A DNA stretch of 40,838 nucleotides. Source: an uncultured Actinomycetes bacterium. Lineage in GTDB: Bacteria > Actinomycetota > Coriobacteriia > Coriobacteriales > Atopobiaceae. Made by a program: the position numbers and the translations under genes. Positions 4,826 to 14,678 of the stretch are shown one piece after another. The stretch lies in assembly GCA_900318935.1 (NCBI GenBank), contig ONMP01000005.1, positions 1 through 40,838 of the forward strand, in the 5' to 3' direction. The notes beneath the pieces are model-generated. The model saw only the letters and a list, made by a program, of their open reading frames with translations, did not search any database and was not told the DNA's origin. How positions within the stretch are numbered: position 1 is the first letter of the stretch; every line of letters begins with the position of its first letter.

Positions 4826-6366
4826 ATGTTTGGCAGCGAGCTCGTTGACGCCATCGACGGTCAGGCGCGTGTGCATCCCGATCGCGTGGCATTTTGCAAC
4901 AGCGAGGGCGAGCGCATCACCTATGTCGAACTGAGCGACAGATCCAATGCGCTCGCGTGCTGGTTGGCTGATTCCGACCATGTGGCACCGGGCGTCCCTG
5001 TCGTGCTCTTTGGTCACAAGTCGCCCTTCATGCTGACGTGCATCCTTGCGTGTGCGAAGTCAGGACATCCCTATGCACCGGTAGACACGGTGTATCCGAC
5101 TGATCGTGTGGCGCGTATCGTGGAGCAGGTGGGGAATACCCTGCTCATAGACACGACGGCTAATGACGCGGCCAGGGCTGCCGCGGTGGCGGCCCCGCGC
5201 GTCTCGCTTGACGACCTGTGCGACATCTGCGCGCAGACGGTCACACAGGAAGCGGTCGAGGCACTGCCCGGCACGAGACGTGACCGGACCTTCTATATAC
5301 TCTTTACCTCTGGCTCAACGGGCGATCCTAAGGGTGTGGAGATTACGGGCGAGTGCGTGGATGAGTTCTCGCGCTGGATGATGAGCGACTACGTCTTTGA
5401 GGAGGATGGTGTGCGTACGTGGTTCAACCGCACTCCTTACTCCTTCGACGTGAGCATCACAGATCTCGTCTGCGGTACCACACGCGGTGATACCATGTTC
5501 GCTCTTGAGGCCGAGGCCGATGCCAGCCTGGCAAAGACCTTCGAGGCGTTGGCTGATTGCGATGCTACCGATTGGGTATCAACACCTTCGTTTGTGGAGC
5601 AGTGCTTGGCTGACGCTGCGTACGACGCGACACTGATGCCTCGCCTCAAGCGCATGCTGCTGGCGGGTTAAACGCTGCGTCCTGCCACCGTGCGCGAAGT
5701 CAAGCGTCGCTTCCCTGGGATTCATGTCTACAACGGCTATGGCCCCACCGAGTCGACCGACCTAGTGACCCTCTGCGAGATTACCGACGAGATGCTGGAG
5801 AACGACCTTGCTCTGCCCATCGGCTACGCAAAGACGGGATCCGACCTCGTGGTACTTGAGGAGAGCCGGGAGAGCTGTTTGTCGCGGGTAACACCGTTGC
5901 GAGAGGCTACTACGGAAGGCCTGATCTCACTCAGGCCGCCTTTGGAGTGTGTCCGGAATCGCTTGCTCAGGGACGCCGCTCGTATCGCACGGGTGACGAG
6001 GTGACTCGTGAGTCGAACGGGCTCTACTATTTCCATGGCAGGCTCGATTTGCAGATTAAGCTCCATGGTTACCGCATCGAACTGGGCGACATCGAGTCGA
6101 CGCTCGTGTCGACGCCGCTTGTCCACATGGCGTGCGTGCTGCCTGTCGTGCGCGACGGATCGATTCACCATCTCACGGCGTTTGTCGTACCTACAGAGGC
6201 GGCTACTGGCCGTGGGCTCAAACTCACCCGTCAGATCAAGTCGTTGGTGCGTGGCATGCTTCCTTCATATATGATTCCACGAACCTTCAGGTATCTGGAC
6301 GAGATGCCGCTCAATACCAACGGCAAGGCTGACCGCAAAGCTCTTTCGGCTCTCATTGACGCATAG
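4826..6366 (+). pseudogene. dltA: dltA, D-alanine--carrier protein ligase, two disabling lesions
   Basis: DltA adenylates D-alanine and loads it onto DltC. The protein is recognisable end to end: the FTSGSTGDPKG ATP loop, WFNRTPYSFDVS, NGYGPTEST, YRTGDE, and a C-terminal NTNGKADRKAL with the conserved Lys. It is not one open frame. A TAA at 5669-5671 interrupts LLAG-[stop]-TLRPATV where DltA normally reads GE; one base change (GAA to TAA) would explain it. A second lesion at about 5871-5874 (GAGAG, apparently a 2-nt duplication) shifts the frame, after which ELFVAGNT...ARGYYGRPDL continues in another frame to the stop at 6366. The total span, about 513 codons, is normal for DltA. Sequencing error cannot be excluded for either lesion alone. 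Confidence 0.88.
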
Positions 6367-6375
6367 GCGGCACGC

Positions 6376-7469
6376 ATGGACTTTTTCGTCGAGCCAGCGT
6401 TCTTTGTGCTCTGTTTGCCCATCGTCGCAGTGGCGTTCGTGCTCGGCGTCTTGGGTAGGCCGCTCGGACGCTACGCACTTGGTGCGTCGGTTCTCATGCT
6501 GTTCCTGCTCTTCTTCCGCACGCCAGCGGCGCTCATTTATGCCGTGGCATATCTGGTCGTTTCGTTAGGATTGTACAGATTCTGCCGCTCGTGGCATACA
6601 AGGTGGGGGTGCTCATCACGCCGGACTTCCCCGGTTTCTTGGGCATCTCCTATATCACCTTCAAGGCGACGCAGGTGCTGCTCGAGGTGCATGACGGCCT
6701 TATCGACGATATGACGACGCTCGAATACCTTGGCTTCTTGTGCTTTTTCCCCACCTTTACGTCGGGACCAATCCAGCGGAGTCGGACTTTCGTGCAGGAC
6801 CTCCGCACACCGCTCACTCGAGACGCCTATCTAGAGAGGTTCTATCGGGGGGCAGGTTGGTTCGTGGTCGGTGCGCTTTACAAGTTCGTAGGCGCGGCAC
6901 TTGCGCAGTGGTTTATGTGGTTTGTGCCTGCCGCGGTGGGGCAGGGAGCACTCGGTTGGCTGATCGAGGTGCTCGGCTACGGGCTGTACCTGTTCTTTGA
7001 CTTTGCCGGTTACTCGGACATGGCGATGGGTCTGGGCCTTGCGCTGGGCGTCGAGGTGCCGCGCAACTTCCGGGCGCCGTTCGTGGCGACAGACATCAAG
7101 GAATTCTGGGATCGCTGGCACATCTCGCTCTCCACGTGGCTGCGCGATTTCGTGTTCATGCGCTTCTCTCAGTTTGCCCTGAGCCGGAAGCTCTTTAAGT
7201 CACGCGTCACGACGGCCTGCGTGGGCTTCATGATCAACATGACGCTCATGGGCCTCTGGCATGGCATAACCTTGGATTACTTCGTGTACGGCATCTATCA
7301 CGGTCTGCTCTTGGCCGGATGTCACTACATGCAAAAGAACTGGAAGTTCTACAAGCAGCATCGTCGCGATCGTTGGTTCCGCGTGACGTCGTGGGCCGTG
7401 ACCATGGTGGCGGTGTTCTTTGGCTTTGCGTTGTTTGGCGGATACGTAATCAGTCCGTTGCTTGGCTAA
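6376..7469 (+). pseudogene. dltB: dltB, MBOAT D-alanyl transferase, internal deletion and frameshift
   Basis: DltB is the membrane-bound O-acyltransferase that passes D-alanine from DltC across the membrane. The N-terminal helices start at ATG 6376 in one frame (MDFFVEPAFFVLC...) and reach LGLYRF. The rest (LPLVAYKVG, LGISYITFKATQ, FFPTFTSGPIQRS, FDFAGYSDMAMG, EFWDRWHISLSTWLRDF, LMGLWHGIT with the catalytic His) lies in another frame from about 6579 to 7469. Compared with family members, some 20-40 residues are missing at the junction (6576-6581), so a deletion not divisible by three is the likely cause. Translation from GTG 6591 would give only a DltB lacking its first helices. It begins 9 nt after dltA. 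Confidence 0.85.
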
Positions 7470-7496: not shown

Positions 7497-7736
7497 ATGG
7501 CGGACATTCGACAGCAGATTATCGACCTCGTAGCCGATATCACCGACGAGCCGGACGTAGCGGACGAGCCGGATCTGGATCTCTTTGAAGAGGAGATTTT
7601 GGATTCCATGGCGGCAATCGAGCTGCTAGTGGCCATCAAGGACGAGTTTGGTGTATCCATCGCGCCGACCGAGCTCGAGCGTTCCGAGATGAATACGCTC
7701 AACAAGATCGTAGCGCGTGTGAGCGAGCGCCTGTAG
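7497..7736 (+). CDS. dltC: D-alanyl carrier protein DltC
   Basis: A 79-residue acidic carrier protein. The 4'-phosphopantetheine attachment site is ILDSMAAIELL with Ser37, and the length is exactly that of known DltC. It receives D-alanine from DltA and presents it to DltB. The start ATG 7497 has GAGAGGAGA just upstream. The frame is intact although both upstream partners are broken, so as annotated it could not be charged by the local DltA. Confidence 0.95.
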   Translation: MADIRQQIIDLVADITDEPDVADEPDLDLFEEEILDSMAAIELLVAIKDEFGVSIAPTELERSEMNTLNKIVARVSERL

Positions 7737-7744
7737 GGGAGCGC

Positions 7745-8908
7745 ATGGATTCACGCGTCTTGCATGGAAGGCTCATCGCCTTTGCCGGAGGTGTCGCGAT
7801 AGCGCTTGTGGTCGTGGTGGGATACTCCGTGGCGTTGCCCGCCCAGTCGGAGCATGACGAAAGTGTCGACTATGGGTACGTGTACTCGGGGACCAAATCT
7901 TCGAGTGTGGACTTCGTGCGGGCAAACCTGCGGGACGATTCGCTGCTGGTGTTAGGCTCCTCTGAGTTTTCCACGCCAGCACGTCAGGTGCCGCAGGTAC
8001 CCTCCCAGGTGATTGGTGCGCATAACTATGGCCTGCGTCTCATGCTGGTTGGAGAGGCATTCGACCAATGCCTCTGGCACTCCATTGCGATAGGCGCGCT
8101 TTCCGATGGGGGGCTTCCGCACAACAAGGTCGCGCTCATCGTAGGCCTCGGTCAGTACACCGACGGCGGTCTGGACAACGCAAGCTTCGGCGAACGTTTC
8201 TCGTATCCCCTGTACGAGGCGTTTTGTGCCAACGAAGCCGTGCCTGAGGAGGCTCGTACCTATGTGCGACGCCGCCTTGAGGAGCAGGGCATCGATGAGG
8301 CGACCCTGCGTGCAGCATCGCCGGCCGATCCCCTGTCCAGCGTCGACGGGCATGTCTTTGACGCCATGGGTGATTTGCGCTTGCGCAACGACCTGGATGG
8401 CGTACGCTCACAGGGCATCCCGATGGCGCAGGGCACACTCGAGCAGCCTGACTGGGATGCGATGCGTGCGGAGGCGTTAGTCACTGCCCAGACCATGAGC
8501 ACGACTAACGACTGGGGAGCGGAGGACGAGTTCTATACCACGCAACTTGGCCCCGCTCTCGACTCGCTTGCAGGTGCCCGTGCAGGGGAGACCTACACCG
8601 ATACGCCGGAGTACGATGACCTGAACTGCTTCCTCGACGTGTGCGATGCTTGTGGCGTGCAGCCCCTCATCGTCATCGAGCCGGTCATGGGACCCTACTA
8701 CGATCACATTGGCATCAATCTCGAGACGCGTACTGCCGCCTACCAGCGCATTCGCGACGTGGTGGCGGCACATCCCAGTGCGCGGCTTGCGGACTTCTCA
8801 GACAGGGAGTACGAGAAGTACTTCCTCTTTGACATCGTCCACTTTGGTTGGACGGGATGGATTGACGCTCAAAGAGCTCTCTACGAGTTTGCCACGGAGG
8901 TGGGCTAA
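7745..8908 (+). CDS. dltD: DltD, final transferase of teichoic-acid D-alanylation
   Basis: A 387-residue SGNH-like protein with an N-terminal membrane anchor (residues 9-31); the rest is extracytoplasmic. The nucleophile motif is LGSSEFS (residues 70-76) and the C-terminal Asp/His pair is DIVHFGW (His366), which match the Ser and His of characterised DltD. DltD takes the acyl group from DltX and moves it to lipoteichoic acid. The gene is open and begins 8 nt after dltC. Confidence 0.93.
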   Translation: MDSRVLHGRLIAFAGGVAIALVVVVGYSVALPAQSEHDESVDYGYVYSGTKSSSVDFVRANLRDDSLLVLGSSEFSTPARQVPQVPSQVIGAHNYGLRLMLVGEAFDQCLWHSIAIGALSDGGLPHNKVALIVGLGQYTDGGLDNASFGERFSYPLYEAFCANEAVPEEARTYVRRRLEEQGIDEATLRAASPADPLSSVDGHVFDAMGDLRLRNDLDGVRSQGIPMAQGTLEQPDWDAMRAEALVTAQTMSTTNDWGAEDEFYTTQLGPALDSLAGARAGETYTDTPEYDDLNCFLDVCDACGVQPLIVIEPVMGPYYDHIGINLETRTAAYQRIRDVVAAHPSARLADFSDREYEKYFLFDIVHFGWTGWIDAQRALYEFATEVG

Positions 8909-8909
8909 C

Positions 8910-9092
8910 ATGGCGCGCAAGGCAAAGAAGCGGACTACTCGAGACCGTTTCGACGCATGGACGGCGAAGAATCCGATGCTCGCGAATACTCTCGTGGGCC
9001 TCTCGGTCGCTGGCGGCCTGATAGGGCTGTTCCTCTTTGTGACATTCTCGGGGTTCGGCTCGTCGGCAGAGTTCATCTACAATCAGTTCTGA
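8910..9092 (+). CDS. dltX: DltX, acyl-shuttle microprotein
   Basis: A 60-residue single-pass protein. The basic cytoplasmic N-terminus (MARKAKKRTTRDRF) is longer than in Firmicutes DltX. A membrane helix follows at about 28-48 and then the extracytoplasmic end FIYNQF (residues 55-60, Tyr57). This C-terminal hexapeptide is the hallmark of DltX: in S. aureus and S. thermophilus its tyrosine carries the D-alanyl group from DltB to DltD. ATG 8910 lies one base after the dltD stop, with GGAGGTGGG at 8896-8904 as ribosome binding site. DltX is usually upstream of dltA or beside it; here it closes the operon. Confidence 0.88.
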   Translation: MARKAKKRTTRDRFDAWTAKNPMLANTLVGLSVAGGLIGLFLFVTFSGFGSSAEFIYNQF

Positions 9093-9187
9093 TGTTGGCG
9101 GAAGTGTTCGGCCAGCTTTCGTGAGTCAAGAGTTACGTGCGCATATCGGATTTGCGCAAATGAAAGATAGGCGGATTAGGCAAAGAA

Positions 9188-10276
9188 ATGAGCAATACGA
9201 ACCAGGGAGATAGCCGTTCAGCACGGCGATCCGAAACAACCACAGCACAACCGCAGCGCCGACGCACGGCTCAGCCTCCGCAAGGACAGAACCGTCGCCC
9301 AACCCGTCGAACTGGTCAGCCGATGACAAGGACAACGGTCCGGCGCAGCACTCAACCAGCCCGATCGACAGTACGTGCTGATGCGGTGCACGACCGCCCC
9401 TCACGGCAGTCGGACTATCGGGAGTCCCAAGCACCGAACCGCGAGGTATCCGCACGTCGTGGTGGCGCGAGAATACCTCTAGCTGCTGCGCTTGCCGTAT
9501 GGATTATCAGTATCGTCGCATCAGTCATCGTGACAAGGTTCGTGATCTTGGGCACTAGTGGCCAGCCAGTTGACGTGGCGGGTGTCGAGAGTGCCCAGAC
9601 TGCCTCTTCGGCATCGGAGGCATCGGGTACACGGAAATCCCAGACGCTTACGGAAACCACAGACGATGCGAGAAGCGCGTCAGAAGACGTGACGACGATA
9701 GGTGATGACGAGGACGAATCCGATACGACGTCAAGCTCCGAAAGCTCGAGCTCGTCCACAAGCTCAAAAAGCCAAACAAAGACCTCGAGCGGGGTAAAGA
9801 GTCCATGGACGGATTCCGGCACCTTCGCCACGGGTGACGCCTCGCTCGATGAGGACGTCAAGGAGTTCTGCGATGGGATCGCCACCACGGACATGGACAA
9901 CGAAACAGCTCTTCTCGAGGTCTACAAAGGGGTCGCATGGTCGGAATACGTGGAGCGTGACGACGCTCAGCATCCCTCAGGGAAGGATTGGCGCATCGAG
10001 TATGCTCACAAGTATTATGACCACGACTGCAGTGGCAACTGCTATGAGTTCGCCGCGTTCCTGAGCTACTGCCTTCAATACATGGGGCTCGAAGACGCGC
10101 ATGCCGAAGGGATTGTCCTCGAGTTGCAGAGTGGTGGCTGGGGCGATCATGGTATCGTGCTCGTCACAAATACCGACGGGGAGGCATGCCTGTGCGACAC
10201 ATCCCTAGGCACAAATGGTTGGATGTTGCCTGAGACGGCGTACAACATGCAGATTCAGGACTTTGAGAATGCATAA
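9188..10276 (+). CDS. Membrane-anchored transglutaminase-like protein (triad intact)
   Basis: A 362-residue protein. Residues 1-90 are Arg/Gln/Thr-rich and probably cytoplasmic, one helix lies at about 95-121, a Ser/Thr/Asp linker at about 125-205, and a globular C-terminal domain follows. That domain has the papain/transglutaminase order Cys-His-Asp: SGNCYEFAAF (Cys285), WGDHGIVLV (His321) and CLCDTSLG (Asp337). It ends in GWMLPETAYN. The domain would be outside the cell. It is clearly homologous to the protein at 13500-14678 over SPWTDSGTF through GWMLP. The exact reaction (crosslinking, amidase, protease, acyl transfer) cannot be told from sequence. The ribosome binding site is weak. It opens the second envelope module, 95 nt after dltX. 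Confidence 0.75.
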   Translation: MSNTNQGDSRSARRSETTTAQPQRRRTAQPPQGQNRRPTRRTGQPMTRTTVRRSTQPARSTVRADAVHDRPSRQSDYRESQAPNREVSARRGGARIPLAAALAVWIISIVASVIVTRFVILGTSGQPVDVAGVESAQTASSASEASGTRKSQTLTETTDDARSASEDVTTIGDDEDESDTTSSSESSSSSTSSKSQTKTSSGVKSPWTDSGTFATGDASLDEDVKEFCDGIATTDMDNETALLEVYKGVAWSEYVERDDAQHPSGKDWRIEYAHKYYDHDCSGNCYEFAAFLSYCLQYMGLEDAHAEGIVLELQSGGWGDHGIVLVTNTDGEACLCDTSLGTNGWMLPETAYNMQIQDFENA

Positions 10277-10336
10277 CATGTAACCCCTGTTTTACCATCT
10301 ACAACATTTGATTACGTATCCATAAGGACATACGCC

Positions 10337-11758
10337 ATGGTATTCTCCAGTCTCGTGTTTCTCTTTGCGTTTCTCGCATTGCACCTACTCGTGTACGCTG
10401 TCGTGCCGGAGCGCGCAAAGAACCCCGTTCTGCTCGTGTCGTCTCTCATCTTCTATGCATGGGGAGGGCCGCGGTATGTGGTGCTACTCATGGGCGAGAC
10501 GGCTGCGAGCTGGTTGTTTGCTCTGATGATTCAGTATGCTCCGACGCAGGCACGCCGTCGTGCTGCCCTTGTCGGGGAATGCGTGGTGCTGCTCGGATTG
10601 CTGGCGTTCTTCAAATATGCCACGTGGGTGCTCGGTATGGTGCAGGGGGTCTTTGGCGTACCAGCCGAAATCCCGCAGATCGTACTGCCCATCGGCATCT
10701 CGTTCTACACCTTCCAGCTCATCAGCTATGTCTGCGACGTGTATCGCGGCAAGGTTGAGGCACAGCCCGTGTACTGGAAGCTGCTTCTCTACTCATCGCT
10801 CTTTCATCAGTGCATCGCCGGCCCTATCGTGCGATATCAGACCGTCGCGAACGAGATTGAGCATCGTCGTGTGACGCAGACCGATAGGTATGTGGGTGTT
10901 CGTCGTTTCTGTGTGGGCCTTGCAAAGAAGACACTGCTTGCCAACGCATGTGCCGCAGCTGCCGATGCGCTTGTGCCTGTGGGCTCTGACGCGCTTGCCG
11001 GCCAATCCGTTGCTGGCTACTGGCTGGGGATGCTCTTCTACATGCTGCAGATATACCTGGATTTCTCAGCGTATTCTGACATGGCCATCGGCTTGGGTCG
11101 CATGATCGGCTTCCACTACTTGGAAAACTTCGACCATCCCTACCTTGCCTCGTCGGTGCAGGACTTCTGGCGGCGTTGGCACATCTCGCTCTCGAGCTTT
11201 TTCCGTGATTACGTGTACATCCCGCTCGGCGGTAGCCGCTGCTCCATACCTGCCTACGTGCGCAATATGGCTGTCGTCTGGTTTCTCACGGGCCTTTGGC
11301 ATGGGGCAAGTTGGAACTACATCCTGTGGGGCCTGTACTTCCTCGTTTTTCTGCTGCTCGAGCGTTTCGTCATCCGTGACCACATGCCAAAGGTGCTCGG
11401 TCACCTGTGCGCATTGCTTGTCGTGTATTTCGGCTGGGTGCTCTTCCGGTTCGAGGATTTCGGCGAGCTCGCGACGGTGGTCAAGGGTATGGTCGGCTTC
11501 GGTGGAGGTGGGCTTACCAACCTTACCGTACGGACAGTGCTGTTGCAGAACGTTTTCCTCGTTCTGGTCTCCATCGTTGCTTGCACTGACGTGGGGGTGC
11601 GACTACGCAAATGGCTCTATGGCAGAACGCGTGGCAACAACGTCGTACTCGCGGTGTTTGGCGTTCTCGAGGCAGCGACGCCCCCTGTCTTGCTCGTGCT
11701 CTCCGTGATTGCCTTGGCAGGTGCGAGCTACAACCCCTTCATCTACTTCCAGTTCTAG
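10337..11758 (+). CDS. AlgI/PatA-type MBOAT with fused acyl-shuttle hexapeptide
   Basis: A 473-residue polytopic membrane O-acyltransferase. Family signatures are SFYTFQLISYVCDVYRG, HQCIAGPIVRY, YLDFSAYSDMAIGLG, FWRRWHISLSSFFRDYVYIP and FLTGLWHGASWNY, the last with the catalytic His322. AlgI/PatA proteins take acetyl or another acyl group from a cytoplasmic donor and export it for modification of polysaccharide. The protein ends in FIYFQF (residues 468-473, Tyr470), the same C-terminal hexapeptide as DltX at 9075-9089. This marks it as the fused type in which the MBOAT carries its own acyl shuttle. It precedes a DHHW protein by 59 nt, the usual partner. ATG 10337 follows AAGGA at 10323-10327. 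Confidence 0.92.
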   Translation: MVFSSLVFLFAFLALHLLVYAVVPERAKNPVLLVSSLIFYAWGGPRYVVLLMGETAASWLFALMIQYAPTQARRRAALVGECVVLLGLLAFFKYATWVLGMVQGVFGVPAEIPQIVLPIGISFYTFQLISYVCDVYRGKVEAQPVYWKLLLYSSLFHQCIAGPIVRYQTVANEIEHRRVTQTDRYVGVRRFCVGLAKKTLLANACAAAADALVPVGSDALAGQSVAGYWLGMLFYMLQIYLDFSAYSDMAIGLGRMIGFHYLENFDHPYLASSVQDFWRRWHISLSSFFRDYVYIPLGGSRCSIPAYVRNMAVVWFLTGLWHGASWNYILWGLYFLVFLLLERFVIRDHMPKVLGHLCALLVVYFGWVLFRFEDFGELATVVKGMVGFGGGGLTNLTVRTVLLQNVFLVLVSIVACTDVGVRLRKWLYGRTRGNNVVLAVFGVLEAATPPVLLVLSVIALAGASYNPFIYFQF

Positions 11759-11817: not shown

Positions 11818-13362
11818 ATGGCTGAGGAACAAAGGCGGCAACGTAGGCGTGCGGAGCAAGGTCGGACGGCTAGGCGTCCCGACGATCAAGCTCGGCGACG
11901 CGGCGAAGAGCACGGGCCGCGACGCAGCGCAGAACGCGGGCCGCAGCGCAGATCTCGGCGCAGGTCGCGCGAGCAGGCGGCGCGTATGCGAAAGGTTGGA
12001 GCGTATCGTCGGGTTGGCGTTGCCGCGAGTGCGGTTGTGCTTGCAGCGGGGGCAGTGGTCGGCCTGCTCTTCTTTGCGCGTCCCACGACCTCGGAGGTCG
12101 AGAAGCGTACGCTCACGGCCATGCCGCAGCTCACATGGAGCGGATTCTGGAGTGGCGAGTACTTCTCGGATCTCGCCCTCTGGTACAGCGACACCTATCC
12201 GCCGCGCGAACAGCTCGTAGCGGCTGACCAGGCGTTAGACGGACTACATGGGATTCAGACTGAGACGCAGATGATTGGTGGCACAAAGCGGGCTGACGAG
12301 TTGCCTCCCGCTAGCAGCTCAACGACGGACGGGACCTCCGACGGCGAATCTAATGATTCTGATACGAACGCGAGCGCGGACACATCGAAGGGCGGGACTG
12401 GTTCGAAGGCGCGTCGCGAGCGTGGCAGGGTGGAAGTGCCTGCGCAAGAGGTCATGGCTGAGGCGATACAGGACCAGGTGCTCGATGGACTCTACGTCAA
12501 GGGCGATGCCGCCTACAATATCTACTATTTCGATCAAGATGCCGTGCAGGAGTATGCCGACGCCATGAATGCTGCTGCGGAGGAACTGTCGGGTGAGGCC
12601 ACGGTCTACTCGCTCGTCGCTCCCAACGCCTCGGGCATCCTGCTCTCGGACCAAGAGGTCAAGGATCTCGGTGGGACCAACCAGATAGACGCCATCGAGT
12701 ATTATTACAGTCTCTACAACGATGACGTCCATCCTATCGATTCTGTGCCCGAGCTAAAAGCGCACGACGACGAGTATATCTTCTTCCGCACAGACCACCA
12801 CTGGACCGCGCTGGGTGCTTACTACGCCTATGTGGCGTTCTGTAAGGAGAAGGGCATCGAACCTGAGAATCTCGACGACATGAAGCACATCAACATGGGC
12901 GACTTCCTCGGGTCGCTATACGCGCAGTTGAATAGCGATGCGATGGCGGCGAATCCAGACTACGTGGAGGCGTGGATACCCAACGGAACCAACAAGATGC
13001 GCCTTTGGGATCAGGACGGCACGGTGAGCGATGACTACAACGTGATTACCGATACCTCCGACTGGGACGTGACAGGCAAAACCATGGGATTCATCATGGG
13101 TGACCAACCTCTGCAAAAGATTGAGAATCCAAAACTCGACGATGGTTCGGCCTGCCTGCTCATAAAGGACTCCTTCGGTGACTTCTTCGCCCCATGGCTG
13201 GTTGACCACTACCAGACCGTCTACGTGGGCGACTTCCGCTATTTCGAGAGCAACATCGATGACTTCGTTCGCCAGAACGACATCGACGACCTTATCTTTT
13301 GCAACAACATCACCCTTGCCGGTGGCGGCGTGGTAGCTCCGGCAATCCTTGGTCGCCTGTAG
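11818..13362 (+). CDS. DHHW/AlgJ-like extracytoplasmic acyltransferase
   Basis: A 514-residue protein. A very Arg-rich N-terminal 60 residues is presumably cytoplasmic. One helix lies at about 70-90, and an extracytoplasmic SGNH-like domain follows. The DHHW motif is FFRTDHHWTALGAYY (Asp326, His327, His328, Trp329) and the likely nucleophile is Ser452 in LLIKDSFGDFF. Such proteins receive acyl groups from an AlgI-type MBOAT and place them on a polymer, so this is the probable final transferase for the preceding gene. A Ser/Asp/Thr-rich insert at about 160-205 looks disordered. ATG 11818 is preferred over an upstream GTG at 11800, which overlaps the GAGAGAGGCG binding site. The polymer acceptor is unknown. 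Confidence 0.85.
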   Translation: MAEEQRRQRRRAEQGRTARRPDDQARRRGEEHGPRRSAERGPQRRSRRRSREQAARMRKVGAYRRVGVAASAVVLAAGAVVGLLFFARPTTSEVEKRTLTAMPQLTWSGFWSGEYFSDLALWYSDTYPPREQLVAADQALDGLHGIQTETQMIGGTKRADELPPASSSTTDGTSDGESNDSDTNASADTSKGGTGSKARRERGRVEVPAQEVMAEAIQDQVLDGLYVKGDAAYNIYYFDQDAVQEYADAMNAAAEELSGEATVYSLVAPNASGILLSDQEVKDLGGTNQIDAIEYYYSLYNDDVHPIDSVPELKAHDDEYIFFRTDHHWTALGAYYAYVAFCKEKGIEPENLDDMKHINMGDFLGSLYAQLNSDAMAANPDYVEAWIPNGTNKMRLWDQDGTVSDDYNVITDTSDWDVTGKTMGFIMGDQPLQKIENPKLDDGSACLLIKDSFGDFFAPWLVDHYQTVYVGDFRYFESNIDDFVRQNDIDDLIFCNNITLAGGGVVAPAILGRL

Positions 13363-13456: not shown

Positions 13457-13462
13457 TAGAAT
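13457..13462 (+). promoter_or_regulatory. Possible -10 for the second transglutaminase-like gene
   Basis: TAGAAT lies 38 nt before the start codon and just after the palindrome. A -35 is not evident. It suggests that the downstream gene can be transcribed independently of the MBOAT genes. Weak evidence. Confidence 0.3.
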
Positions 13463-13499
13463 GTTGCAACACCGCTTTTTCGCAAGGCTGGAGGATTTC

Positions 13500-14678
13500 A
13501 TGGCACGAAGAGATGAGAACGCGCGAGATCGGCGCGAGCCAAAGAAACGCTCGGTGCTGCTCGACATAGTGGCTTGTCTGCTGCCTATAGTGAGCCTGGC
13601 TGGTTCGCTTGCGTTGGCGACCTTTATCTTTCGTCATGTGGACAATGCGGTCAAGGTCTCGCAAGAAGCACTTGCCGGAGCTGCGCCGGACACTGGTACC
13701 GGTGAAATAGCTCCGCAGACGGTGTACGCAGGTGTTGCCGACCCGTGGAACGCCTCTGGGAGCTTCACGGTCGAAGACGAAGAACTCGATGCGTACATAC
13801 GCGACTATTGCGACGCGCATACCATGGAGGGTGACACTGCCGAGCAGGCCGCCGAGCGGACATATGACGATGTCGTTCAGAGCTCCTATCTCTATCGCGT
13901 GGACAAGCCTATGGGACTTGACTGGGTGGCGCGATCTGCGCGTGAGTTCTTCCGCTCGGGAGCCGAGACGGGCGAATACCAGGGTGATGCGTACGAATTC
14001 TCAGCGGTCATGGCCCTGTGCCTGCGTTACTTCGACTATGGGGATGCGATTGCTGTGCCCATAGTATATTCGGAGTCAGAGGAAGGCCAAGAAGGGAGTG
14101 CTCTCTGCTTGGTGACGGACAAGACTACGGGTATGCAGTGCGTGTGCGATCCCACATTGGGAACGGAAGGATGGATGCTTCCTCGCACTGGATACAGCAT
14201 CCTCGTGGATGACATCGGACAGAATCTCGACCCCGCAAGGGGCCTCGGTCTGCGAATCCAGGAGAAAGACGAGACGCCAAAGAATCCTGATGGAACCGAT
14301 GCGGTGAATCCTATGGGTGGAACCAACGGTTACACGGGCATGGGTTCCGGGTATGGCGAATATGGTACGGAAAGCGATTACGGAACGGAAACTGGCTACG
14401 GCACGAGCAACGGCTACGGGACGGGGACCAGTAACGGCGCGGGTAACGGCTATGGCTCTAATGGATACGGATCGTCGGGTGGCTACGGCACGGACGGGTA
14501 CGGTGACACGGGCTCCAACGGCTATGGTTCTTCTGGGACAAGTGGCAGGACGAGCAGCGGGAGTGGCACGAGTGGCACGACGGGAGGGAGTAGCCCCTAC
14601 GGTGGCACGGGATACGGGAGCAATGCTGATTCGTACGACGAGTACGACTCCTATGGTTACGACGACGCGAGCTACTGA
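13500..14678 (+). CDS. Inactive transglutaminase-like paralogue with Gly/Tyr/Ser tail
   Basis: A 392-residue protein. It has a basic N-terminus, one helix at about 20-45, then a domain that aligns closely with the C-terminal domain of the protein at 9188-10276 (DPWNASGSF to GWMLPRTGY). The catalytic Cys is replaced by Ala164 (GDAYEFSAV), the His by Ser200 (QEGSALCLV), and only the Asp is kept (Asp217, CVCDPTLG). It should therefore lack thiol catalysis and may bind the same ligand or regulate its paralogue. Residues about 275-392 are a low-complexity tail of GYG, NGYG and SSG units with many Tyr, ending in acidic DSYDEYDSYGYDDASY. ATG 13500 has CTGGAGG at 13488-13494. Confidence 0.75.
   Translation: MARRDENARDRREPKKRSVLLDIVACLLPIVSLAGSLALATFIFRHVDNAVKVSQEALAGAAPDTGTGEIAPQTVYAGVADPWNASGSFTVEDEELDAYIRDYCDAHTMEGDTAEQAAERTYDDVVQSSYLYRVDKPMGLDWVARSAREFFRSGAETGEYQGDAYEFSAVMALCLRYFDYGDAIAVPIVYSESEEGQEGSALCLVTDKTTGMQCVCDPTLGTEGWMLPRTGYSILVDDIGQNLDPARGLGLRIQEKDETPKNPDGTDAVNPMGGTNGYTGMGSGYGEYGTESDYGTETGYGTSNGYGTGTSNGAGNGYGSNGYGSSGGYGTDGYGDTGSNGYGSSGTSGRTSSGSGTSGTTGGSSPYGGTGYGSNADSYDEYDSYGYDDASY

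Follow-up and report, generated by a model that had tools for sequence, protein, structure and literature searches.

A putative PatA/PatB1-type acyltransferase pair with a fused acyl-shuttle motif, relocated beside the dlt genes of an uncultured gut actinobacterium

Introduction

The closest described relatives of the locus analysed here are envelope acylation systems in which an MBOAT protein works with a final transferase of the SGNH type. In the PatA/PatB system for peptidoglycan O-acetylation, known from C. jejuni and N. gonorrhoeae, PatA carries a C-terminal FxYxxF motif on extra membrane helices (PMC12148441). PatA auto-acetylates the tyrosine of this motif, and an acetylated FIYANF peptide donates its acetyl group to PatB (PMC12148441). 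The shuttle mechanism, including the form fused to the MBOAT, is therefore already published (PMC12148441 and work cited there). In the Dlt D-alanylation pathway the motif is found on a separate microprotein, DltX; the work on DltX (doi 10.1038/s41564-023-01411-0) is considered here as far as it is described in PMC12148441. According to the same paper, the non-Dlt MBOAT/SGNH pathways operate without a carrier protein. In Bacillus cereus, PatA1 and PatB1 are involved in O-acetylation of the secondary cell wall polymer, and the Ser, DxRY and DHHW blocks of the DHHW/PatB1 family have been defined (PMC9487903). An MBOAT/DHHW tandem is also present in the clostridial cellulose synthase locus, in which CcsH and CcsI were proposed to O-acetylate a polysaccharide (PMC7710045).

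We have analysed a stretch of 40,838 nucleotides (the window) from an uncultured member of the Atopobiaceae, in which an AlgI/PatA-type MBOAT gene and a DHHW gene are located close to a dlt operon. The pair resembles PatA/PatB in the FxYxxF tail on additional helices, the conserved histidine and the separate SGNH transferase, but its SGNH partner is of the DHHW type instead of a Gram-negative PatB, and it occurs in a gut actinobacterium whose nearest named relatives are Coriobacteriaceae/Atopobiaceae. The pairing of an MBOAT gene with a DHHW gene is as in B. cereus PatA1/PatB1 and clostridial CcsH/CcsI. With the Dlt pathway, the window has in common the dltABCDX gene order and a FIYNQF microprotein, whereas this assembly has interrupted copies of dltA and dltB and a transglutaminase-like gene, named here TG1, is added after dltX. 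We think, with a probability of roughly 0.82, that the MBOAT-DHHW pair is a complete PatA/PatB1-type MBOAT-SGNH acyltransferase of the envelope with its shuttle fused to the MBOAT, and that it came to lie beside dlt through relocation.

Results

Gene organization and the two shuttle motifs

The genes follow the order ftsH, dltA, dltB, dltC, dltD, dltX, TG1, MBOAT, DHHW, TG2 and aminotransferase, all of them on the + strand and with intergenic gaps of 59–98 bp (Table 1). Scans for promoter and terminator patterns gave counts close to the shuffled expectation.

Table 1. Positions of the features of the locus in the window.
Feature	Positions	Strand	Profile or conservation
dltA, interrupted: in-frame TAA at codon 282 and 28-nt deletion near 5860 (reference: intact G009)	4826..6366	+	
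dltB, interrupted: 64-nt deletion near 6573 (reference: intact G009)	6376..7469	+	
dltC, carrier protein (PP-binding), intact	7497..7736	+	
dltD, SGNH-type final transferase of the Dlt pathway, intact	7745..8908	+	PF04914 225 bits; TIGR04092 above cut-off
dltX, 60-aa membrane microprotein	8910..9092	+	
DltX C-terminal hexapeptide FIYNQF (Tyr57)	9072..9089	+	invariant in 14 distinct DltX
TG1, transglutaminase-like, one likely membrane helix; C285, H321, D337	9188..10276	+	C285, H321, D337 conserved across TG1 group
AlgI/PatA-type MBOAT, 473 aa	10337..11758	+	PF03062 92.6 bits; His322 invariant
MBOAT C-terminal hexapeptide FIYFQF (Tyr470)	11738..11755	+	
DHHW-family SGNH transferase (PatB1-like): Ser452 in KDSFGD, GDFRYF from 471, DHHW at 326-329	11818..13362	+	
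TG2, TG1 paralogue without Cys and His (likely pseudoenzyme), Gly/Ser/Tyr-rich tail	13461..14678	+	

The hexapeptides that end DltX and the MBOAT are identical in five of six positions. The window contains 599 stop-to-stop frames of 40 aa or longer, and exactly two of them, those of DltX and the MBOAT, end in F.Y..F. Chance is therefore an unlikely cause of the match; it was dismissed also in view of the conservation of both motifs. The preliminary description had placed the two motifs correctly, including their 5/6 identity and their separation by a single gene (9188-10276), and it had rightly assigned to each system a final transferase of its own, DltD and the DHHW protein.

Conservation, fold and topology of the MBOAT

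Relatives of the MBOAT were collected from the genus, the family, the order, Clostridia and other groups, giving 108 distinct full-length sequences. An FxYxxF end is present in 106 of them, and the other two end in FLYFRY and LIYFGF. In an alignment of 47 MBOATs, 40–97% identical to the query, F468, Y470, F473 and His322 are all invariant. The DltB proteins of the same family have other C-termini, and FIYNQF is kept without change in the DltX proteins of the genus. This type of MBOAT is single copy in the source genome (G000), which rules out a recent duplication.

The AlphaFold model of the MBOAT has a pLDDT of 91 and a pTM of 0.90, and its closest solved fold is that of DltB (6bug, E 1e-10, TM 0.63). 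Helices are predicted at 396-415, 419-429 and 435-462 of the C-terminal part. The tail is predicted to be extracytoplasmic by the positive-inside rule, because R422, R424, K425, R430 and R432 precede the last helix and neither K nor R occurs after residue 435. This orientation agrees with the description of PatA (PMC12148441), and a cytoplasmic C-terminus was rejected on the predicted topology. The preliminary description had made its shuttle proposal depend on a hexapeptide conserved in orthologues and on a C-terminus outside the cytoplasm; the former is observed and the latter predicted.

The DHHW partner and the putative acyl transfer

The DHHW gene starts 59 bp downstream of the MBOAT gene, and its product is recognised by PF14286 with 319 bits (E 5.5e-95). 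It matches B. cereus PatB1 (5v8d/5v8e) and the Eubacterium siraeum structure 4nzk, and it carries all three blocks of the family: KDSFGD at 450, the DxRY-type GDFRYF at 471 and DHHW at 326. An SGNH gene lies directly downstream of the MBOAT in 101/108 relatives, being DHHW- or AlgX-like according to profiles built in this analysis, whose matches overlap. Inspection of the open frames gave no recognisable cellulose synthase gene beside the pair or at the usual site of the orthologues. SLH-domain proteins were found neither in the source genome nor in its near relative G009 (both draft genomes), and an S-layer or B. cereus-like secondary-polymer context is thus unsupported.

Most likely, the pair acts as an O-acetyltransferase of an envelope polymer. 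At the usual site of the pair, the neighbouring genes include no recognisable ligase or carrier gene, and for this reason acetyl-CoA is the likely donor, as it is for PatA. In the proposed scheme, the MBOAT would use a cytoplasmic acyl thioester, most likely acetyl-CoA, with the participation of His322, and would acylate Tyr470 of its own extracytoplasmic FIYFQF tail. Ser452 of the DHHW protein would then accept the acyl group from the tail, and the DHHW protein would transfer it onto an envelope polysaccharide; Dlt would rely for this chemistry on DltX, a separate microprotein. We infer the acyl-Tyr intermediate, the acceptance by serine and the acetyl cargo from published work on relatives, while the motifs, their conservation, the predicted fold and topology, the gene pairing, the relocation and the lesions come from the present analysis. 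If DltA and DltC of the neighbouring operon are active, the second pair could in principle receive D-Ala as well.

Relocation of the pair to the dlt locus

In G014 and G012 the locus reads ftsH-dltABCDX-TG1-TG2-AAT with TG1 adjoining TG2, and G011 has the same order with a short gap between TG1 and TG2. The MBOAT-DHHW pair is located elsewhere in these relatives: it sits between a beta-lactamase-like gene and fruR in G010, G014 and G012, and the beta-lactamase-like flank is shared by G011. In the source genome 144 bp separate the beta-lactamase-like gene from fruR and the pair is absent from this site, and G009 agrees with this closed site, there at a contig edge. The pair has therefore moved as a unit, leaving the usual fruR site for the dlt locus between TG1 and TG2 in the G000/G009 lineage. 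In this genus the dlt locus includes the intervening gene, TG1. An ancestral membership of TG1 in the second system was dismissed, as TG1 follows dltX also in relatives without the pair.

Among 140 family genomes, DltX and an FxYxxF MBOAT lie within 5 kb of each other only in G000, G009 and G003, a count that amounts to two events and from which contig breaks could hide others. DltX follows dltD directly and is 93% identical between G000 and G009. In G003, from another lineage, a different pair (MBOAT and AlgX) is found directly 3' of TG1 at dlt, as an independent parallel; its MBOAT is 65% identical to the second MBOAT type of the genus.

Lesions in dltA and dltB

Compared with G009, which has the same gene order with all genes intact, the source genome carries three lesions in dltA and dltB (Table 1). 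The remaining genes, ftsH, dltC, dltD, dltX, TG1, MBOAT, DHHW, TG2 and aminotransferase, are intact, and a second copy of dltA or dltB was not found in the draft genome. Against G009, the broken genes have dN/dS values of 0.02–0.08, and therefore the lesions are either very recent or assembly artefacts. The latter could be the case because the source genome is a draft, 88% complete with 5.7% contamination. As a separate observation, dltD is frameshifted in G003 (L123 7903-9056).

Transglutaminase-like genes linked to the shuttles

The Cys-His-Asp residues of TG1 are conserved, while TG2 keeps only the Asp. Most genes of the locus evolve more slowly than TG2. The AlphaFold model of TG1 (pLDDT 93.6) has as top folds PeiP (pseudomurein endoisopeptidases), TglA, LapG and NAT (arylamine N-acetyltransferases), with modest TM values of about 0.5; a PDB search with the TG1 sequence gave nothing useful. 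Of the 140 family genomes, the 20 with a strong TG1 match (E 3e-55 or better) are also the 20 with a close DltX match (E 1e-13 or better); they are mostly of one genus and so do not represent 20 independent observations. In G010 the two genes are on separate contigs, and G006 has a weaker TG-like match, with its dlt contig ending soon after dltD.

TG-like genes are also located 9–52 bp upstream of fused-tail MBOATs at eight loci (L016, L017, L018, L027, L078, L086, L107 and L123). This arrangement spans Clostridia and Coriobacteriia, and several of the upstream neighbours have choline-binding or ChW repeats. In a set of 35 upstream neighbours, enriched by choice so that the fractions are not frequencies, 10 match Transglut_core and 9 match the choline-binding repeat.

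A third shuttle system in the genus

A further system is present in the source genome (contig C261; L134, 3-4319) and in relatives (L161-L165, L169-L174). Its MBOATs have fused tails of the FxYAN[YF] type (FMYANY, FLYANF or similar) and there is no DltX. An SGNH-like gene was assigned by position and length, having no Pfam match. The AMP-forming ligase is closest to amino-acid adenylation domains, with 313 bits against a cut-off of 317. Most complete loci also encode a small protein of 80 aa with an LDSFD motif, which aligns weakly with DltC (26% identity, E 1e-4) and scores below the Pfam cut-off for carrier proteins; the contig of the source genome ends inside the ligase, and the carrier-like gene is not seen there. 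Judged from these sequences, the third system would be fed by a carrier and yet have its shuttle fused. This combination disagrees with the published account, in which non-Dlt MBOAT/SGNH pathways lack a carrier, and is outside that dichotomy. A PLP-dependent decarboxylase/racemase-like gene adjoins the ligase (L171 916-2112; L163 6018-7229), and it may supply the amino acid or amine of this system.

Discussion

The acyl-shuttle reading of the preliminary description is well supported for both motifs. Its picture of two designs side by side is weakened by the damage to the DltX system in this assembly, by the assignment of the intervening gene to the dlt locus and by the lineage-specific nature of the adjacency. 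The interrupted dltA and dltB, the relocation, the link of TG1 with DltX and the third system had escaped the preliminary description. For the adjacency itself, we give about even chances to a neutral accident of rearrangement, each system acting separately: adjacency occurs in 3/140 family genomes, through two events, the pair exists in one copy and was transferred as a whole, and an association of DHHW-type MBOATs with a TG gene was seen in G000/G009 only. This explanation has to face that two different MBOAT-SGNH pairs were inserted at the same point, immediately 3' of TG1, and that the order TG-MBOAT-SGNH recurs in Clostridia. The same two independent insertions (DHHW in G000/G009, AlgX in G003) would favour instead a recruitment to the dlt locus, with the same polymer or a common D-alanyl supply and TG1 as a shared accessory; the single strand and short gaps of the window genes and the TG-like genes directly upstream of fused-tail MBOATs elsewhere point in the same direction. 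In variants of this idea, the fused-tail MBOAT would take D-Ala from DltC or add an alternative ester on the D-alanylated polymer. We think that recruitment is very unlikely, since the pair is at another locus in most of the genus, so that proximity to dlt is not needed, G000 has interruptions in dltA and dltB and G003 has a frameshift in dltD, and DltC would need to fit a PatA-type MBOAT.

It might also be that Dlt is genuinely being lost in the source organism, so that working envelope acylation at this locus would be left to the relocated pair. Three separate lesions hit dltA and dltB while the neighbouring genes stay intact, and no second copy of either was found in the draft genome; however, G009 shares the arrangement with both genes intact, the low dN/dS would make any loss very recent, and the assembly is a draft. 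For these reasons we consider a genuine loss doubtful.

Returning to the relocated PatA/PatB1-type pair with a fused shuttle, it adds a member to a known class, and neither the mechanism nor the fused form is new. The third system and the co-occurrence of TG1 with DltX are fresher than the original motif finding. We tentatively raise, as a proposal still rather unlikely to hold as a whole, that acyl-shuttle systems have in TG1 a dedicated partner and that the genus has a third, carrier-fed fused design. TG1 would then be an extracellular protein, perhaps a Cys-dependent transferase or esterase with the acylated polymer as its substrate, which Dlt and the fused-tail system would have in common at this locus. 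A literature search for transglutaminases in connection with MBOAT or DltX found nothing relevant.

Conclusions

The DltX-linked transglutaminase-like gene and the carrier-fed fused shuttle lend themselves to testing, and the literature searched contains no description of them. Having a separate and a fused shuttle in one locus provides a natural comparison between both forms. As the relocation shows, the MBOAT-SGNH pair acts as a module in its own right, and it carries published acyl-shuttle chemistry into a family of gut actinobacteria.
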